A DNA stretch of 64,000 nt. Source: Centroberyx gerrardi. Its lineage: Eukaryota > Chordata > Actinopteri > Beryciformes > Berycidae. The position numbers and the translations under genes were made by a program. Where the stretch lies: positions 18,064,176-18,128,175 of the forward strand of contig NC_136016.1 of NCBI RefSeq assembly GCF_048128805.1. Reading direction: 5' to 3'. Positions within the stretch are counted from its first letter, which is position 1. Every line of letters begins with the position of its first letter. The notes under the pieces were generated by a model that was not told the DNA's origin, made no database searches, and worked only from the letters and a program-made list of their open reading frames with translations. Shown here piece after piece: positions 12,918 through 48,430 of the stretch.

Positions 12918-15900
12918 ATGGCAGAAAACAGCTCCGAAACAAGCGGCTCCGTTTATCGGAGATGTTTGGCCCATTCCTCGGCAGAGAAGAACATTTCATC
13001 CGGTGTCGGGGCATCGAAATGGATTCGCCTGAACGTTGGGGGAACGTATTTTTTAACAACAAGACAGACGCTGTGTCGAGATCCAAAATCATTTCTGTAC
13101 AGACTGAGCCAAGCTGACCCCGAGCTCGACTCCGATAAGGTAAATGCTAAGCTAGTCGAGCAAGTTAGCTTGCTAGTCGGAAGCGCAGTAGCTCCAGTTT
13201 TTTAAAAATTTTTTTGCCAAACTGGCTAGTAATCGCTCGGTCCAGTGTTGGCCGAGCGGGGTGGGTATCAGTTACTCTTGCTGACTTGCGTAGTCACTCT
13301 TTCAGCTCTGTTAAAGATGCTGTTATGTGTCTTAGGTAGTCACTTAACGCTAGCTTTCATTCTTTATAGCTAGCTAGCCTTAACCTGCTAAGCTAGCTAG
13401 ATTCCGACAGTCACACCACATGACACGAGCTTGCTAGCTTGTTGTGTGTAATGTTGCTGTAGATCGTATACGTAACGTTACAGTGCTTAAAAAGTGAGTG
13501 TGCCTGGGCTTATAATGACACAATTTATCTAGAGTGGTAATTCAGCGGAATCGTCTAGTAGTCTAGTATTTTAACTGCAGCTTTCCTAGTGAAAACAGCA
13601 AGTTGCCACAGTAGTTGCAAACTTTCCCCATCCAAGGCCATTGCATTGCGTTGCACTCATCAAGGTATCAAATGTCAGCTAAGTGATAACAAAGTAATCT
13701 GCCCTGTCCAGTGTTCATATACAACTGTTCGATTTTTCTTGTAAACTTACCAAATAATCTATACATATGACTTAATAGTAAACTAACCTAATTATCTGTG
13801 TTTTTTTTTTTTCTTTGGGTGGTCTGTCACTTTCTACACGATGAGTGCAATGATTGTCCCCTAGCCCCGCTGGTTCTGCTTGGTCTGCAATAATCAGCCT
13901 GTGTGGTGTAGATCTCCTAATGAGTGCACAAGTCATTGCCAAGTGGGGTGAGGTGCTGACAACCAAGAGCAAGGGATGATGTCACTCATCTCCCTGAATG
14001 GCTTCATTGGGCGAGAATCAGGCGCCTCTCTGTTTGTCCATCTGCCAGTAACAGCAGTGTGTGCTTTAAGTCCCCCAGCACTGTCAAGTGTCCATGTATT
14101 AGAGTCTGTACAGATACTGTGGCGTGCTGTTTTGCTCCATTTTTACTGCTCCATTATTATTCATTGTTCTCATCCACTTACACATTTTAATCTTCACCCC
14201 TACCCCCCCTTATACCCAGCGGAGGCCTTGTTTCCTTTCATATTTTCATGCAAATATCTTAATCTTTGAATAATCAGCTTGTTTTTTGTCCTGCCATGAG
14301 CAACTGATCAGCCTATCTCAATCCCTTGTCTTAAGTGCATGTCAGACTCCCAAGCCATTACCATACCTCTTTGCTGCAGCTGACTCAAGACAGCTCTCAA
14401 TATAGGACAGGGTATCGTTTTACTTTAACCACTTGCAGTCAAACTATATATGCTTACATGATTTTATCTCGCATGTGAATGACAGTCAAGAGGGCCTATT
14501 CTTTCTGTCACCTCGCACAACTCTGTACATGAACAGGAAGCCCAGAAGATTGATGGCTTTCTGAAGTGCTCTGTTTTTGGCGAATGCAGTATTGTGTTTC
14601 CCAGCCAAGGAAATGAGTGGTTCAGTTCTCAGTCACGCAGGCTGACGTGCTTCAGTAGGACTCTTGAGGAGAACTGCATTATTCATGTTGTTGACTGGAG
14701 CCTGTTTTGCACATTGGGGTAGACCAGGGAGAAAGTGGAGGGAGTGCACTCATATGCGCAGCCAGCCATCACAGCTGACAGTCACTTTTTTTTTATAAAT
14801 AAGTATCTATATAAGTCTATTTTTTTTAAATTGTCTGTCTCAAAGTTGACAAACGCCCCTGTCTGTGACCATGTTGGTGTGGTATTGTCATTATTCTGAA
14901 TATTTGATGAAGCGTTTTGTTGGCCTACATTGACTAATTCACGTCATGAGTGTCTTAAGAGGATATCGCTGTCAAATAATTGTCAATGGTTCAATCAACG
15001 AACTGAGAGATGCACATCGATGGACGCCCATCCTTCTCGTTAATGTGTAATGGCGGACTACTCCTCTCAAACAACTCAGCACCACTCAAGCGGAGATCCA
15101 GCTTTCTGGTTTTGAGAGCTGCATCAATTTTTCAAGCATTCCATCACATAGAATTCTTGTTCCTTTCACATCTGATTTTTTTTTTTCATATTCATCTCCC
15201 ATTTGCTGGCTGAGAAGGTTCTCTCGTGTGTGCGAGAAATATGGCCGCATTTAATGCCGGGTTCACGTTGTATGTCATGCCTGAGCGCACTGTGGGAGGC
15301 AACGTAAATATTTAACGGTGACATCATCATCTCCTCCGCTGCCTCCACGCAGTCAGTGCTCAATGCAACGCTGCAGAGTTCCACTGGCAGATCAGGTGCA
15401 AATTTAAACCGCTCCAGCCCGACTCTGTTGCCTATACCAGCACAAGGCCACTTCATTCACAAAAGCCAGCCACGCACAATTGATTAAAGCCTTGTGCTGA
15501 AATGAACCTAAATGTCGCAGGCTGGAACTCCCCCATGACTGAGTTTTAAACAGAGTAAATATTTTACACTAAGCTCCTCTCTCCTCTGTGATTCGCATTG
15601 CTGCTTTCTACCTAAAGCTCCGGGTGGCAGTGATTTCCCGCTCGCCAGCGTGGCCGAGCAACTCTTAACTGTGCCGTCTCACCATGACAGGGAAGCTTTT
15701 AGGGGGTCATCTAAAAGGAGTTGTTCATTTAGTGCCTGAAACATTCCCCCGTCATAAATTGTTCAGCTAAATGCACCGGTGGCGTTGCCTTTGCGAAATC
15801 ATGTATGCTTAGAAAATGCTGAAAAGACGAGAGATGACCCCCCTCCCACCACCACCACCAACCCAGAGGAAAGGTCAAGCTTGACAGTAAAATCAGGCAC

Positions 15901-20066: not shown

Positions 20067-22347
20067 TTCTCAACCCATGTAGAGATTATCAGCACAGGAG
20101 CTGACCTCATAATTCTTTGGTGTTTGGTTTTACTCATTATGTTTGACAAAGGTAGAGGCCTATCCATTGATTGTCTTATCTTAAATTCAATGTTTCCTAG
20201 TCTAACCATACATAGTTAAGAATTCTATTAACCTCATCCTCCTTTTTCCTCTGCTTTCCAGGATGAAACTGGTGCCTATCTCATAGACAGAGACCCCACG
20301 TACTTTGGGCCAGTGCTGAACTACTTGAGGCACGGCAAACTGGTGCTCAACAGGGACTTGGCAGAGGAAGGTAATGTTCTCCATGGGATATGACATGAAG
20401 ATTAGGGATGTTCCCGAATCCGAATGCCATATTCTGCAAAGCATGAAAAATTGTTTTCATTTTTGTTACTTCGACATTTTTTTCAGTTTTATTCAGATGT
20501 TTTAATAGTATGCCTTTAGTCGTGATGAAAACGTATTCAACTGAAAATAACTTGACTGGCTTTTTTCTCAGTTGAACTCAGAAGAGAGAGGAGCGGCATT
20601 TGAGTTCCTCATTCAGTCTGCTTGTGTTGTTACTGCCTGTCACACACATACACTGCCGAAATTGAGAGAGAGAAAAAGAGTTGCTTGTTTGTACATTTTT
20701 TGATACTAATTTAGTATTAGTGAGGCCAATTATTTGCTTGTTCTTGTCCTGGCACGTCTGCTTGGCTGATACCGTCTTTTGCGAGGGAGAGTTGATTTGA
20801 CTGGGAGTGGAGGAAGACTCTCTGTCCTCTTGAGTCTGTTCAGTACAGCGGGATGCTGTGTCTCCCGATTGATCAACACTACTGGTCTTCACAAAATACA
20901 ACTCGGAGAAATTTGAGTAGAGGCACAGTAGTCAAAGATATATTACTCGTAGAGAAGCTTTTGATTTTTTTGGTTTTCTTTTCATTTGTAGCAGAATATG
21001 CAGATTAAACAAAAAGTAGAGGTAAAATTAAAGAATTTCAAAAAAGAGGTTGACACAAAGATATACTATAAACACCACATACATATCATAGTTTCTCCGT
21101 ACACCCCTTATGTGAATGCCATGGTGTTCAGCCAAGCCTGATCTGTAGCAGTTGCAGGCTCACTCAGCCTGAAACGCTTGATTTTTTTCTCTTCTGTTTT
21201 TCACTTTTTTAGGGGTGCTAGAAGAAGCAGAATTCTACAACATTACATCATTAATAAAGCTCATCAAGGACAAGATCAGGGAACGTGACTGCAAAACATC
21301 ACAGGTGTGTACAATTCTTCCAGTGACACTCTACCTAGCTAGATTTCTCATCAAATTTAATATTATTGTATTTTTTTTTTCCACCCCTTTTCATCCCTCT
21401 TCCCCCCCCCCCCCCCTCTCCCAGGCTCCAGTGAAGCATGTGTACCGGGTGCTGCAGTGCCAGGAGGAGGAGCTGACGCAGATGGTGTCCACCATGTCCG
21501 ACGGCTGGAAGTTTGAACAGGTAAAGCTCTTCCCGCAGAGTCACAGCAGCGATCCTCCTTTCATGTGCTTCACGCACCCCGCTATCCTCACATTGACCAG
21601 ACAATCCAATCCTCAATATTGGAAATGAAAAAAAAATAAATCCATGTCCGCATACATGATCCGGGCATCCCTTCTGTGCTCTGATTGGTTGTTGCAGCTT
21701 GTCAGTATAGGTTACGGGCGGGCCCACCAGTCAGAGTTTCTGCTGATTGTGTCAAGGGAGGTGAAGGGAGAGGAGTCTGCTTTGCCAAACAACAGCGGAG
21801 AGGTGTGTCCCACAAATTTCTGTCCCCGGGCTGGTCACTGCATGGTCCCCATGTTGTCCATACACACACCCCGTTGGCCATCCTATGTCCCGACTTGACA
21901 CATAGCTGTTGGCCTTTTTTGAGTTGATTCCTTTCAGTGTTCATTTGTACTGCTTGTTCACCAATGAGGCTAAGAGAACATGACACCTTTTTTCTTGTCT
22001 GTGATTGTTTTTTTGTTTTGTTTTTTCCATTCATTCCCCATCCACAATTTGTTGTAGCTTGTCAGCAACTGTCTTTGTTTTGCTTTGATGTAGCCACTTG
22101 GCTATTTTGGGGGCTATGCTGCAATATACTGCTGGTTGTTTTAGAGGTAAAAGTGTAGGAGGTCTCTTAAGTTGTTTTATCTTCCCAGCAGGCACTTAAC
22201 CTAGAAATACAAATAGATTCAAACATTAAAGTATGAATTATCCAAGTTTACAATACTGAGTTTTACATGAGGTTTTGTCCTCAGTCAAAACCACCAAGGG
22301 ATTATTTCTCTTGATGGGAAGGCACGCTCATTTGGGTGTTGGGGTGG

Positions 22348-22398
<51 letters not shown>

Positions 22399-25300
22399 AA
22401 TGAATCTCCCCTCAAGAGATGAGGGGAGATCACTGGATCTCCCATCAGGGCTGAAATCTCACTAATCTCCTTATACAGGTCAGATGGGAAACCCCTAGAA
22501 ACACTCCCTTATGCAAAGCTTAAAGCTCAGTAGCCGGCCCAGGGGAGTCATCTGGGGAGACGAGCTCAGCTGACCTACTGCCTCGCTTTCAGGGCCACTA
22601 ATGGCACCGCTGCCTTCAGGACTCCATAATTATAGTCCATTTGTTTTGAGGGTGTGTCATGGTCTCTGGTCATTGAAGGTTATTATTTTAAAGCTGAGAC
22701 ATCGAGGGTCTTTTAGATTTGGTGCATGTTGAGCCATCAGCATTGTGGAGAGTAGAGTCCTTGGTAGCTAGTTTACATTATTTGGTCTTTTTGCTGCATT
22801 GACTGCTAATGTGAGATCTCTCGACAACAACAAGTCTTCGGCAGAAGCGGCTAATGAGGCGGTGCGTGTCTGAACATGCACACCTGGGTGCAGACAGTAT
22901 ACATGTAGCCTGCAGTGTACACACACTTAACACACAGAGTTAAAAGGAGTCGATCCGGAAGAGGCATTGCTCTGTTTTTCTAACAGTGTTTTTCAAGGTG
23001 TGCATGCTGTTTTTGTTTTTTTTGTTTTTTTAAAGATCTTGTCCCTTTATAATTTTTCCTCTTATATTGTTTTATTTGTGTCCTTTTGTGAATAAGACAT
23101 TTTAGCAGGAACAGGAACATTAGAAGTTGCAATGATTGTCTTAGAGATCCGTTTAAAAATGCTGTGTAGGATTTTCTCATTGGTGTATTCCTTAGGAAAA
23201 GGGTTGGCATGACTAACGCCTTGTAATGCTAGGGGGAAAAAGTGACTCGCTGTTACAAGCAGCAGCCACAGTGATGTTTTCATTTGGTTGAATTTGGGGC
23301 TTCTCACCCTCTATTCCCTGTAAAGTCTTGACAAAACCCTTCTGGTAGTCTGGTAAGTTATGCAGCAGAAGCAGGAGGGAGCGGACATCATGAAATACGC
23401 TGATAGAAAGCAGCTCACAGGGACAGTAGAACAGTGCAGATAGTATTGATGACAATTCATTTGACAATAGAAGCATGAGAGAAAATCCTACACGCACTGT
23501 CTAGTAGTGTCATGGTACTAACAATCAAATCTCTTCATAGTCACGGAGCTAAAAAATGACACTCTTGTTTATAAGACTGGGAGTGAGCTACTTAGTGGTT
23601 TGCTCCACCTTGACTTTATTCACTATTAAGGAGACAGTTTCCAATACTTCATTGCATCACAACAATTCACTGACAACAAGCTTGGTTCCATCAAATCAAA
23701 CCCACTGTTCCCCATTTTGATTTTTCAACTAGCATGTTTGCTCCCTGTGGTTGAGTCCATGCACTTGTATTCTCTTAGTGACTGACTACTGATATCTTTT
23801 GCTGTCCTTTTGTGTATTTTAGCTGTTTCTTTCTAACAATCATTAACTTCTTATTGTGGATCTCACATTACCATATTTTATTTCTTGGTAATTGCCTTCA
23901 TAATATCCCATCTGTTCACCCATTTCTCTTTTTTACTGTTTTTTTCCCCTTAATCTTTATGAATCCTAACACATCCCTGTTTTTATTTTGGATTTCCATG
24001 CTGGCATGTCTGCAGGTCCTGAAAGGATTTAAGAATAATGTCTAAATTGTATTTTAGAAATTTAAGGCTGTAGAAAGTGTTTAAATGCAGGTAAATGTAG
24101 CTTTTAAGTCTTAAATTGTTTTAAAGGTCCTAAAACATGTTCTCTTGGTGTGCTGCTTTTCTAGTTTGAAATTTCATAGTGTGAGTCATAAAGACCGATA
24201 CTTGGAAAGGTCTGTTTTTCATATTGACGTTTATTTCACTGGTGAAATTTGTCATATATTTCATCATAAATGCCGTTAAAATATATCAAAAAGTCTTAAA
24301 TTTAACTTGCTGCAACCTGCAGACACTCTGCATCTCCTGTTTGGTTGTCAACCTCTTACACATTGCTTTAAATTTCCGTTAAACTTCCTCCCTCTTCTGT
24401 TTTCCACCATGAGCTGCCCAACTTGTGTCTTCATGTTGCCTGTCCAAGGCTAATCCTTCCTCTGTGCTGTGCTCTCTCGTCTCTGTAGCTGGTCAGCATA
24501 GGCTCCTCTTACAACTACGGAAACGAGGACCAAGCCGAGTTCCTGTGTGTAGTCTCCAAGGAGCTGCACAACCAATCATACGGGACAAACAGTGAGCCCA
24601 GTGAGAAGGCCAAGGTGAGTGTGTGTGCGTCTGTGTGTACACGAGTGGCAAGGCTGGTTGAAAATCCATCCATAGCAAACATCTGTGAATGACGGTCTGT
24701 GTTGGGTGTTTTTAAATGCACAGCGTTGATGAACTTTTCCCCACGGGACTATGATAAGTACCGCTGGTTTATTGATGAGGAACCTCTATGAAGGAGCGCA
24801 TTGTGACTGCTGCAGTTAAACTAGACTCTGCCTTTTATAACCTGTATTGATCAGAGGAAATTATTTGAACTCTAAAATGAGTCTGTGTTTGTCATAGGGC
24901 TGGGCAGTATGGTTTAAATCAATATCATGATAATGGAATTAATTTTTTTCAATATCGATATATATATATATATATATGACGATATGGCTCATGTATGCAA
25001 AATCACACGTTAAATAATCAAATCAATGTTCATCCCATTGAACCAAAAGGTAATGTTAGGTGTGATGTCAAACAAAACTGAAATTTTAAAATAATATTCC
25101 TAAAAATGTTTACTCATTTTGTCTGAGTTTTTAAATAGAATTTACTTATCATCGATGTAGACAGCTATGATTTATCAAAGATGATAAACGATAATATTGA
25201 GTTATCGCCCTGCCCTAGTTTGTCAGTTAAGTATTCGAAACGATTGTAGTGAAGCAAAGGTTGATCATTTAATTTTGTCAGTTGAGGACATTTAAGTAAA

Positions 25301-28066
25301 GGACATTTTCACAGCCAACAACACTCACCCATTTGGATTTAGGCAGGAAAAGAACAACTGTTATTTTGATGTTGACTGTCAAAGACCACGCAAGGGGTCT
25401 AATAGCATTAACCCAGCTTTAAGATTTATGTCATGTTAGATTTGACCTGAAATGGAAAAAGTCTAAACATTGTAATCCGTGCTGTGGGGGTGGAGGGGGG
25501 GGGGGGACCATGAGAGCACAGGTCTGCGGATTAGTGGGACTATTAGCAAGGACTGTGGTTCTCTCAAGGGCTTTGGGAGCAAAGCAGGAGGCGCACCCTT
25601 AGGAATTAAAACTCCCATCAGCACGGACCCATGGGGGCTCGCTCCTCATCCGCCGCAACACACTGAGCAACCTTTATCCACTCGCCTATTGAATGATTTC
25701 AATGGTTGAGATTAAGATTTAAGCACTATTTGTGCGTCTTTTAAGCAGATCACTCATTGTTTTTGTACATTATTATTATTATTATTATTATTACATGAAT
25801 AAAAAACATTCAGAGGCTATTTTGTGATACTTTTCAAGGGAACCGTATAAGGACTGGGTTTTTCTAGATGACTGATTGCGGTGCCTTACTCAATATACAA
25901 TTGTTTGAGATCTAAAATGCTTAGTAATTATTCAGAATAGGCCTATTTTATTTATTTAGTCCTATTTAGACAAGTACATGTAGATGTATTGCGCTTGATG
26001 AAATGAGCTTGGTAGAAAGGTGCCTTTGGATAACTTTTGTATTTATTTTTTTTTGTATGTGGTGTTCTGTGTAATTGGGTATGTGTATGTTCATTTCACC
26101 CCTGTCAAAGTCCAATGAAGAGTAGTAATAGTGGGAAGGGTGTGTCTGATACTCAGTCGAGTCTTCATTGGACTGTTTGCATAGAGAGATTAAATGTTAG
26201 TCGTTAAGTAATGTGAATCCCCTCTGATCGTAACCCGTTAGTTTTATTTTTCTCCTTATTCTCCTTTCTAACATTTACACCTCCATTCATTTCCATTCTT
26301 TTAAGACATGCCTTTCTTGTCTTCTTCTGTGCCGTCTGCATGCTGCATGTTGCTCAGAGCGAGGACGAAGAGACGGATTATGAAATGAATGACTCTGATT
26401 AGGGTTGAGCACTTATGACTCAATGGTGAGCGCTCAACTGCTCTCTTAGTCCCTCCACCGCACCTCCTTAGTTTCTCCTCGTCCTCCCTTTCCATCCCTC
26501 TTTGACCCAATTTATGCTACTGAGGGCTTTTTCACGTTCGTTTTCAAAGACGCCTTTAGTCGAAAAGATGTTTTTACACGTTTTGAATCGAGCTTTGGCC
26601 TGCCACCTCCAGAGGTTACAAGCCAAAGCTGGATCAAAAGCCTGATGCTGCCTGCTTAGACCGGTCAAACTATTTCCCTTCAGGTAAAGCTCTCTTTGAA
26701 ACCAGATGGGAAAAGCTCCATTCTGTCAGTAGTGTAAATAGGACCTTTTGTTACTATTGTCATGCTCACAACCTTGGTCAATGGAGGGCATCCTGTATCG
26801 TCAGCTGCTGCACTTTGACTTATTGTCCTCCACTCAATGAAATGACGGGGATTTAGCTGCGTCCGTCCCTCTGTCAAACGTGATATCTTACACACCACTG
26901 ATCTAATTTTGACTTAGATGGATGATGCATCTTTGCACTGTTTGCTCAGTTAAAAATTAGATTGCCCTATAATTAATTAAAGGCGCTATAGTTAAAGGTC
27001 AAACTTTTAACTCTAACATTAAGGCATTATAAAAAGGCACTATAATTAAAAGGCAAGTTTATTTATATAGCACATTTCACACACAAAGGCAATTCAAAGT
27101 GCTTTACACAAGGTATGTAAGACATTAGATAAGAAATACAGCTAAAAACAAAAAGAGATTATAAAGCGTATAAGAAGAGGGTATAAATAAAGAATTAAAA
27201 TGCATAAAAGAGAATAAAGATCAAGTTTCAGTCAAAATTTCTAACTTTGAAAGGCTCCAGCTCTGACACCACAAGTCCGATTGATACAAAACATGCAACA
27301 CAAATACAGCTGTCTTGACAAATTACACTGATTTGCCTAATAGGGGCACTGTGATTACAGGTCCAAATTTTTAACTCGGTAACACGATATCTCAGACACC
27401 ATTGGTCCGATTTTGACAAAACATAGAGGGATGATGCATTTTGGTGCTGTGTTCTAGCATTTAAAAACATTAGGTGTCTGAGATTTGATGCGAGACACCA
27501 CACAAATGACTCCACAGATAAAGACCATACTATATACCGTACCAGCATTGCTTAACATAGTTTTAAATGATTAGCCCAAGCAATGACGGCATCATGCATG
27601 ACTGGGTGCGACATGTTTATGTTGCCTTGTTTTGATCCTTGGGTCAAACTAATGAGATTAGTTTCGCCCTTCATCTCTTTGGGATTTCAGACTCGGCCGA
27701 AGCGTCATGGTTAGTTGTAGCTTTTATCGCCGTGCCTTTCCGGTACCAAGGTTGACCGCACCTGCCAAGGTTCCCTTTGTGAACCGACCCTGACGTCGCT
27801 CTACAAGCACGCGCTCCTAGTTTGTAGCACAGCAGATTTATTTTCCTCCCTCATGTTAGCATTTCCTTTTTCTCCCCTCACTCCACTCAGTGTGTGTTTC
27901 AGCCTGCATGTAGAGTAAATGCAAGTGTGCTGCTGGCTGAGAGAGTTAGCACTGCTGAAGTGTTGTAGGGCTTACAGAGCATGTGGTACGTTGTGTTTTT
28001 GTTCCTTATGCCATTAAGCCTCTTCTGTCTCTGCAGATTCTCCAGGAAAGGGGTTCCCGGATGTGA
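12918..28066 (+). CDS. kctd5: BTB/POZ domain protein KCTD5 (CUL3 adaptor)
   Basis: Substrate adaptor for cullin-3 ubiquitin ligases that forms pentamers; mammalian KCTD5 is linked to turnover of G-protein beta-gamma subunits. Six exons: 12918-13139, 20262-20370, 21213-21304, 21425-21520, 24489-24614 and 28037-28066. They make 675 nt, or 224 residues (human 234). After a variable N-terminus ([11 protein letters not shown]) the BTB domain starts at [12 protein letters not shown] (about residue 35) and runs through [19 protein letters not shown] and [12 protein letters not shown]. The C-terminal domain has [19 protein letters not shown] and [20 protein letters not shown], and the protein ends ILQERGSRM exactly as in human. 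The start at 12918 matches the human MAEN start and has a good Kozak context. An in-frame ATG 29 codons upstream (12831) is open. A second exon-5-like copy lies in intron 4 (separate entry). Paralogs kctd2 and kctd17 are close, but the N- and C-termini fit kctd5. Confidence 0.95.
18010..18455. repeat. Probable non-autonomous DNA transposon (MITE) in kctd5 intron 1
   Basis: The left part has ACCGATGTGGG, GGCCGATACC and GTGCCGATATTC. The right part has ATATCCGATATT, GGCCAATATC and ATCGATCTAATG, partly inverted with respect to the left. Such CCGATA-rich ends are typical of widespread fish MITEs. The ends are decayed and the borders approximate. Confidence 0.5.
20034..20065. repeat. (TG)n microsatellite, kctd5 intron 1
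   Basis: An uninterrupted TG run of about 16 units, roughly 200 bases upstream of kctd5 exon 2. Confidence 0.95.
21698..21802 (+). CDS. kctd5: Candidate alternative copy of kctd5 exon 5
   Basis: Inside kctd5 intron 4, after a TTGTTGCAG acceptor, a 105-nt open stretch reads [19 protein letters not shown] then [16 protein letters not shown] and ends at a GAG|GTGTGT donor. Regular exon 5 (24489-24614, 126 nt) begins [19 protein letters not shown] and continues CVVSKE. Both start and end in phase 0, so either copy, or both, would keep the frame from exon 4 into exon 6. The shared LVSIG, YG, Q.EFL and VS.E pattern, with many synonymous third-base differences, argues for an old tandem exon duplication kept under selection rather than a decaying copy. 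The variant drops four residues before the YG pair and changes the C-terminal domain surface. Whether it is spliced into mRNA is inference. Confidence 0.75.
22351..22396. repeat. (GT)n microsatellite, kctd5 intron 4
   Basis: About 23 GT units without interruption, between the candidate alternative exon and exon 5. Nothing else genic was seen in 21803-24000. Confidence 0.95.
24005..24330. repeat. MITE with CTGCAGGT / ACCTGCAG ends, kctd5 intron 4
   Basis: The left end has TGTCTGCAGGTCCTGAAA and the right end AACCTGCAGACACTCTG, which are inverted copies. The inside is rich in TTAAG/CTTAAA and has no coding capacity. A related element lies at 59738-60170. The terminal CAGRGTRTCTGCAGGT pattern fits a common fish hAT-like MITE. 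The family name is inferred. Confidence 0.6.
24896..25216. repeat. MITE with AGGGCTGGGC ends, kctd5 intron 5, copy 1
   Basis: Starts AGGGCTGGGCAG and ends in the inverted GCCCTGCCCT. Inside are an (AT)10 tract (24958-24977) and GATGTCAAACAAAACTGAAA. A second member of the same family is at 43013-43310 and shares the ends and the internal blocks. No coding frame, so this is a non-autonomous DNA element. Confidence 0.85.
25770..25792. repeat. (ATT)n microsatellite, kctd5 intron 5
   Basis: About 7-8 ATT units without interruption. No gene seen around it. Confidence 0.9.
26880..27480. repeat. Decayed interspersed-repeat cluster, kctd5 intron 5
   Basis: Several degenerate units repeat here. Phrases such as GGCGCTATAGTTAAAGGTCA (26981-27000) and GGGGCACTGTGATTACAGGTC, and CATTGGTCCGATTTTGACAA (27400-27419) with its relatives near 26895 and 27265, recur in diverged form. 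Between them, 27051-27120 matches a widespread fish repeat tail (AAGTTTATTTATATAGCAC and CAATTCAAAGTGCTTTACA). No coding capacity. Borders are approximate. Confidence 0.55.
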
Positions 28067-47304: not shown

Positions 47305-48430
47305 AATTGAGGCTGTAGCACCACATTTCAAAAAAGGATTTAAATGATTTTGTCACTGATTTACACACAATAACTAACCATGATGTCAAAGTGGATTTCT
47401 TTTATCTACAGATCTGCAGATTTTTACAAATTAATTAACAATCAAAGGCTAAAATGTTTTGAGTCAATAAGTACTCAACCCCTTTGCCGTGACACTCCTA
47501 AAATGAGTTAAAGTGCATCCACCTTTTGAATGTCCTTGATTGGAGTCCACCTGTGGCCAATTCAACTGATTGGACATGATTTAGGACAAAAGACTAATGT
47601 CTAAAGTCCCACAGATGACAGCAGTAATGTCAGAGCACAAACTTTACCCTGAAGTTCAAGAAGCTGTGTGTAAAATTAAGAGACTGTGAGGAGCCATAGA
47701 TCTGGGGAAGGGTATAAAACAATTTCCCAAAAGTGTTGGGAGTTTACAGCTTCATCATAAGGAAAGAGCAGATCATCCGTCCAAACTGATCAACCAGGCA
47801 GAAGGACCTTGGGAGGAGACAAATCCAAGAACCCAAGGACCGCTCTGACAAAACGAAGTTCCTTTGGCTGCGATGGGAGATCTTGCCGAGAAGACAACAG
47901 TCGGTGCAGCACTTCACAAATCTGGGCAGTATGGCGGAGTGGGCAGAAGGAAGCCAGTCTTGAAAAAACTGCACAACAGCAGCCTGGAGTTTACAAAAAG
48001 GCACATGAAAGAGTCTGAAAGTACGAGGCGAAAGATTCTGTGGTCTGATGAAACAAAAATTGAACTCTTCAGCTGTAACCCAAAGCACTATGTCTGGCGG
48101 AAACTGGGCACAGTTCATCAGCTGTCTAATACCTTCCCTGCCCTGAAGCATAGTGGGGGTGGGGGGGTGGGGGGGTGGGGGAGGGGGATAGAGGGAACAA
48201 AGGATGGAGCCTGAGGAGAACCTGCTTCACAGAGCCAAAGACCTTAGTTTGGGGGAAAGATTCATGTTGAGACGGGACAATGAACCTGAGTTTAAAGCCA
48301 AATCAACGCTGCAATGCATTCAGAACAAGAACAAGAACAATGTGAAAGTCTTCGGGTGAACCAGCCAAAGCCCAGTTGCAAATATTGACAGTTGCAAATA
48401 TTTCAACCCATTACATTCTGAGCCATAAGA
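47305..48430 (+). mobile_element. Decayed Tc1-like transposon upstream of il21r
   Basis: The plus strand carries broken Tc1 transposase text. The readable block is KRHMKESESTRRKILWSDET then KIELFSCNPKHYVWRKLGT (about 47996-48113), which matches the DDE-domain WSDE(T/S) region. Upstream stretches at 47620-47990 match the family in shifted frames. After a G-rich expansion (48151-48190) the similarity fades through 48410. Several frame breaks and no full inverted ends, so it is inactive. The minus-strand 135-codon ORF here is its antisense shadow. Confidence 0.8.

Follow-up and report, generated by a model that had tools for sequence, protein, structure and literature searches.

A tandem duplicate of exon 5 in intron 4 of kctd5 from Centroberyx gerrardi, a candidate alternative exon

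In a 64,000-nucleotide (nt) stretch of the genome of the fish Centroberyx gerrardi (contig NC_136016.1, positions 18,064,176 to 18,128,175; hereafter the window), we found that intron 4 of kctd5 contains a second copy of exon 5. This segment (copy A, 21698..21802, + strand) begins 177 nt past exon 4 and runs for 105 nt, or 35 codons, with no stop; its acceptor ends in ttgttgcag, its donor reads GAG/gtgtgt, and both of its ends are in phase 0. Its likeness to exon 5, its open frame and its splice borders are observations, and they confirm copy A as a tandem duplicate of exon 5 that has the same phase, splice borders of its own and homology beyond chance. We further consider it probable, judging from the sequence, that copy A is an ancient duplicate that still works as an exon and is used, under regulation, in place of exon 5. 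A variant of this kind would not have been expected in kctd5; it would be notable because the canonical exon 5 hardly changes, and the C-terminal domain of KCTD2, KCTD5 and KCTD17 recruits G-beta-gamma.

The initial annotation had described an open 105-nt segment with AG and GT borders, in phase 0 to phase 0, that resembles exon 5, and this description is borne out. The local protein alignment of copy A with exon 5 scored 59 and the next segment of the window 36; the highest simulated scores were 46 in 500 simulated introns and 48 in 60 order-3 Markov windows of 64 kb. At the DNA level, copy A was shuffled 500 times, and 3 of these shuffles equalled the score of the exon pair. The likeness sits in the exons and the flanks are not clearly alike: the observed score was reached by 373 of 500 shuffles for the upstream 150 nt and by 34 of 500 for the downstream 150 nt, or 113 of 500 once the first 8 nt of that flank were removed. 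Chance similarity of copy A to exon 5 was excluded by the protein simulations together with the DNA shuffles. Among phase-0 open exons of 50-250 nt in a scan that covered parts of introns 1, 2, 4 and 5 and left out intron 3 (120 nt), only copy A reaches its own acceptor and donor scores. Its guanine-plus-cytosine content is 0.543, whereas intron 4 averages 0.40, and 3.2% of the 105-nt windows of that intron reach this value. Counting against the observation, the exon pair was not picked up by an ungapped repeat finder that requires an 8-nt exact seed. A shorter echo of the same sequence lies at 22049..22065 (+ strand), where 17 nt repeat the copy A acceptor and the first 8 nt of the exon (16 of 17 identical) and also match the beginning of exon 5 at 14 of 15 positions; the frame is not open and further similarity was not found at these positions, which are possibly the relic of a third exon 5 copy.

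The gene itself was modeled with six exons on the + strand: exon 1, from start codon to donor (12918..13139); exon 2, which encodes part of the BTB domain and is backed by a family match (20262..20370); exon 3 (21213..21304); exon 4, which ends in phase 0 (21425..21520; donor 7.9 bits, this and all other splice scores being weight-matrix scores); the canonical exon 5 of 42 codons (24489..24614; acceptor 9.1 and donor 12.1 bits); and exon 6, which encodes ILQERGSRM followed by a stop (28037..28066). Translation of this model gives an uninterrupted protein of 224 amino acids (aa), and swapping copy A in for exon 5 gives one of 217 aa whose frame is likewise uninterrupted, so that either copy can stand between exons 4 and 6 as originally proposed; the predicted junction from copy A to exon 6 (21802-28037) is also correct by the gene model. 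Both protein forms match the BTB_2 family. The solved structure closest to the 217-aa form is KCTD5 (8u7z, E 8.9e-102), with KCTD5 chains matched over their full length; for the canonical form, exon 5 alone was compared, and its peptide matches solved KCTD5 chains (4 distinct sequences) and differs at 3 of 42 residues from 3drx, which we take to be the human protein. By its BTB domain and its match to solved KCTD5, the predicted product is thus an adaptor of the KCTD2/5/17 type. We assume that the gene is the teleost kctd5, and the neighboring gene is presumably pdpk1.

Divergence between the two copies suggests that copy A has been retained for its protein product. Over the 22 codons that can be aligned, 14 of 22 amino acids are kept, 6 codons are identical and 8 have changed silently only; the differences fall 6/4/13 on codon positions 1/2/3 (Fisher p 0.004). 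In a pairwise codon model on these codons, the log likelihood (lnL) was -151.2 for a neutral copy versus -145.3 with an omega of 0.1 on the copy A branch, and on all 35 codons it was -262.8 for neutrality versus -258.3 under the best-fitting setting among those tried. A four-sequence branch test disfavored an omega of 1 on copy A under all three topologies, among which the right one cannot be told (2 delta lnL of 7.9, 13.8 and 15.2; one-sided p of 0.0024, 0.0001 and 0.00005). When neutral decay was simulated from exon 5 under an assumed indel rate, with 4000 runs per level, the frame, splice sites and similarity were kept in 5.3%, 1.5% and 0.5% of runs at 0.2, 0.3 and 0.4 substitutions per site, and in 0 of 4000 runs at each of 0.6, 0.8 and 1.0. 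Third positions differ among the three canonical paralogues at 12, 9 and 15 of 22 codons and between copy A and these paralogues at 13, 14 and 14 of 22; the silent sites of copy A are thus about as worn as those between paralogous genes while its protein is still recognizable, which argues that copy A is old. The usual date given for the split of kctd2, kctd5 and kctd17 is that of the genome duplications early in vertebrate history. From these tests, which are of modest power, long constraint at the protein level on the alignable core of copy A seems likely, though not proven, and copy A is probably not a dead copy.

Searches of the genome found copy A at this locus. Scoring the best candidates in the 779-Mb assembly gave a single place for copy A, at E up to 10, and three places for exon 5, namely this locus, C20:11471812 and C20:20819246, with ag and gt borders at each; an assembly duplicate or retrocopy is accordingly not supported. 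The three exon 5 matches lie on one contig, C20, at 11.47, 18.09 and 20.82 Mb, and a second copy of kctd5 was not found in the genome through these matches. We take C20:11471812 and C20:20819246 to be kctd2 and kctd17 by their sequence. About 16 kb around each of them was searched in + strand frames, the queries being copy A and canonical exons 2-6. The search clearly recovered exons 2-6 in kctd2 and exons 2-5 in kctd17, and the best match to copy A was in each case the gene's own exon 5 (scores of 62 and 54), the next matches scoring 29 and 31. No relative of KCTD5 was found in prokaryote and viral sequence collections.

Several results weigh against a working alternative exon. The claim in the initial annotation that the silent differences reflect constraint on the protein is favored by the 8 silent-only codons, the codon models and the decay simulation, but it was not upheld by a plain test that asks if the distance at third positions is more than double that at first and second positions, the upper limit expected of a dead copy: p was 0.068 on 22 codons and 0.125 on 35, a set of 21 codons being the sole one to reach significance (p 0.037). 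The 22 codons were picked for alignability and are a tiny sample, branch lengths in the branch-test fits are saturated and poorly determined, the tail of copy A is poorly alignable to exon 5, and the 35-aa peptide alone matched none of the solved structures with E 10 as the limit. The copy A acceptor scores 4.2 bits versus 9.1-14.1 bits for the five canonical acceptors of kctd5, and the exon 5 acceptors of kctd2 and kctd17 score 6.5 and 9.6 bits; 24 of the 176 AG dinucleotides in intron 4 score at least as high, copy A itself being counted. A counterpart of copy A was not found in the regions searched at kctd2 and kctd17, and cDNA cloning from mouse brain gave a single KCTD5 transcript (PMC5469494).

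One could accordingly envision that copy A was once a functional alternative exon that is now dead or dying and no longer spliced in. The weak acceptor and the poorly alignable tail would agree with such a loss, and the substitution tests, being averages along the entire branch, cannot date a recent one; however, copy A still has an open frame, both splice dinucleotides and a good donor, and the full set of features survived simulated neutral decay in just 5.3% of 4000 runs at the lowest divergence tried, so we regard this explanation as unlikely. Less probable by far is a neutral pseudo-exon, a duplicate that was never used and is recognizable by luck: the plain third-position test is compatible with it on both the 22-codon and the 35-codon sets, whereas the codon-model tests, the decay simulation and the near-saturated silent sites speak against it. 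The combination of a weak acceptor with a good donor also fits an exon that needs help to be spliced in. The copy A donor scores 8.8 bits, within the range of 7.0-12.1 bits for the five kctd5 donors, and is second best in intron 4, where 2 of 217 GT dinucleotides, itself included, score at least as high. A TGCATG hexamer, which we take to be an RBFOX-type motif, lies at 21839..21844 (+ strand), 36 nt into the intron from copy A; because the hexamer occurs 30 times on the + strand of the window and 3 times in intron 4, this site is weak and at most suggestive. Inside copy A, at 21757-21766, there is a second possible donor (GAG/gtgaag, 7.1 bits, after codon 21, likewise in phase 0), close to the point at which copy A ceases to resemble exon 5, and a 63-nt version of copy A using this inner donor is conceivable.

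How the two copies are chosen is a separate matter, since the initial annotation had suggested that they might be mutually exclusive. Transcripts with copy A, with the canonical exon 5, with both or with neither are all in frame, and the four open frames exclude copy A as a poison exon. Separated by 2,686 nt, the copies both have ordinary GT-AG borders; an incompatibility of frame, crowding or minor-spliceosome use that would force a choice was not found. Nor were four tested pairings between flanks stronger than shuffles (between 0.155 and 0.925 of 200 shuffles were as strong), in a test that did not cover distant or short pairings. Mutual exclusion is thus not supported: the copies can rightly be called alternative, but to call them mutually exclusive is guesswork. 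Because inclusion of both copies is in frame, and because the flank pairings tested revealed no feature that would enforce exclusion, copy A might instead be a cassette exon added to exon 5, lengthening the C-terminal domain rather than swapping part of it; this would repeat the core strand within a compact domain, and we think it quite improbable. Most improbable of all is that copy A serves as an alternative last exon through read-through and early polyadenylation: its frame does stay open past the donor to ~21895, but a search of 21698-24488 for AATAAA and ATTAAA gave one ATTAAA, at 22225, and the second-best donor of intron 4 closes the open copy. The interval between the copies also holds an interspersed repeat (23150-23510) with a perfect 15-nt inverted repeat (23164-23178 and 23479-23493); 39 other partial matches to it were listed in the genome at 67-89% identity, and it is therefore probably an old insertion.

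If copy A is used as a working alternative to exon 5, its predicted effect on the protein is confined to the C-terminal part. Aligned with solved KCTD5, the copy A form has a four-residue gap after LVSIG, which falls on the SSYN of the SSYNYG stretch; it keeps the core strand EFLxxVS and carries a different 13-residue tail in place of the 16-residue tail of exon 5. Of the final 25 residues in the canonical form, exon 5 supplies 16, from HNQS onward, and exon 6 supplies 9; being largely encoded by exon 5, this tail would be mostly rewritten by copy A. In the fly orthologue Inc, the C-terminus is reported to be dispensable for Cul3 binding and self-association yet needed in vivo, and removal of the last 25 residues reduced activity without abolishing it (PMC11790235). 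That the exon belongs to the C-terminal portion of a CUL3 adaptor that faces the substrate, as initially annotated, is supported; its supposed role in shaping the pentamer is not supported, given the fly data, from which an effect of copy A should fall on substrate binding. The KCTD5 counterparts of N167, Y168 and G169 of fly Inc lie in an exposed loop, and alanine at these positions leaves activity normal (PMC11790235), a further point against a working alternative, so that the change in the loop alone may matter little. A KCTD5-substrate structure is said to favor the lateral surface and the tail as the binding site (PMC11790235). Binding of G-beta-gamma is reported to need a charged or polar C-terminal stretch, although a KCTD5 mutant in that stretch still bound G-beta-gamma, seemingly less (PMC9976452); each KCTD5 C-terminal domain is described as touching blade 1 of G-beta-gamma (PMC13361646). 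We infer that the copy A form would have the same pentamer, the same CUL3 and a changed substrate side.

Under the favored explanation, exon 4 would join exon 5 by default because the copy A acceptor is weak, and a splicing activator, perhaps an RBFOX-type protein at 21839, would cause copy A to be included. The resulting 217-aa form would keep the BTB domain and hence the pentamer and CUL3 binding, lose SSYN of the exposed loop and gain another tail; since both the loop and the tail are situated on or close to the substrate side, it should bind G-beta-gamma differently or pick another substrate, and mixed pentamers could tune the number of substrate sites per ligase. A ligase that controls G-protein signaling could then be retuned by splicing, and a variant kept for so long would reveal where the pentamer can tolerate change and where the choice of substrate is made. 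One could go further and suppose, as a possible if doubtful extension, that the alternative exon 5 is as old or nearly as old as the split of kctd2, kctd5 and kctd17, was lost in mammals and kept in fish, and gives KCTD5 a second substrate face, and that mixed pentamers set the number of G-beta-gamma sites per CUL3 ligase, a splicing dial on G-protein signaling.

Elsewhere in the window, open frames at 47744-48214 resemble a fragment of a transposase, which we take to be of the Tc1 type.

A predicted isoform with copy A may already exist in automatic annotation of fish genomes; a description of the exon was not found in a literature search judged by titles and the starts of abstracts, and subscription papers lay mostly outside it. 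In mouse Kctd5, an extra exon is among the novel exons given RT-PCR (reverse transcription polymerase chain reaction) primers in ASCOT (PMC6952364), and it is likewise extra and near the 3' end; the forward primer translates to PYGTTS, inside exon 5, so this exon lies downstream of exon 5, unlike copy A. Splicing of the sister gene KCTD17 alters the C-terminus and probably the binding partners, but through forms with variant C-termini, unlike the duplicated exon 5 of kctd5 (PMC5469494). Further parallels are exons 5a and 5b of SNAP25, where exon 5 of a gene that acts in neurons is likewise duplicated and two mutually exclusive splice variants have been reported (PMC2581893), and the substitutions of tandem duplicated exons cataloged as 236 events in 214 human genes (PMC9741552); copy A differs from both in being a predicted exon. 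More than 90% of those human events have orthologous events in bony fish, and the events are mostly ancient and enriched in N- and C-terminal stretches; the word KCTD is absent from the main text of that paper. As in those events, the exons of kctd5 are neighboring, homologous and in frame, and the two proteins differ in one homologous stretch only, so that copy A adds to a well-described class, that of tandem duplicated exons.

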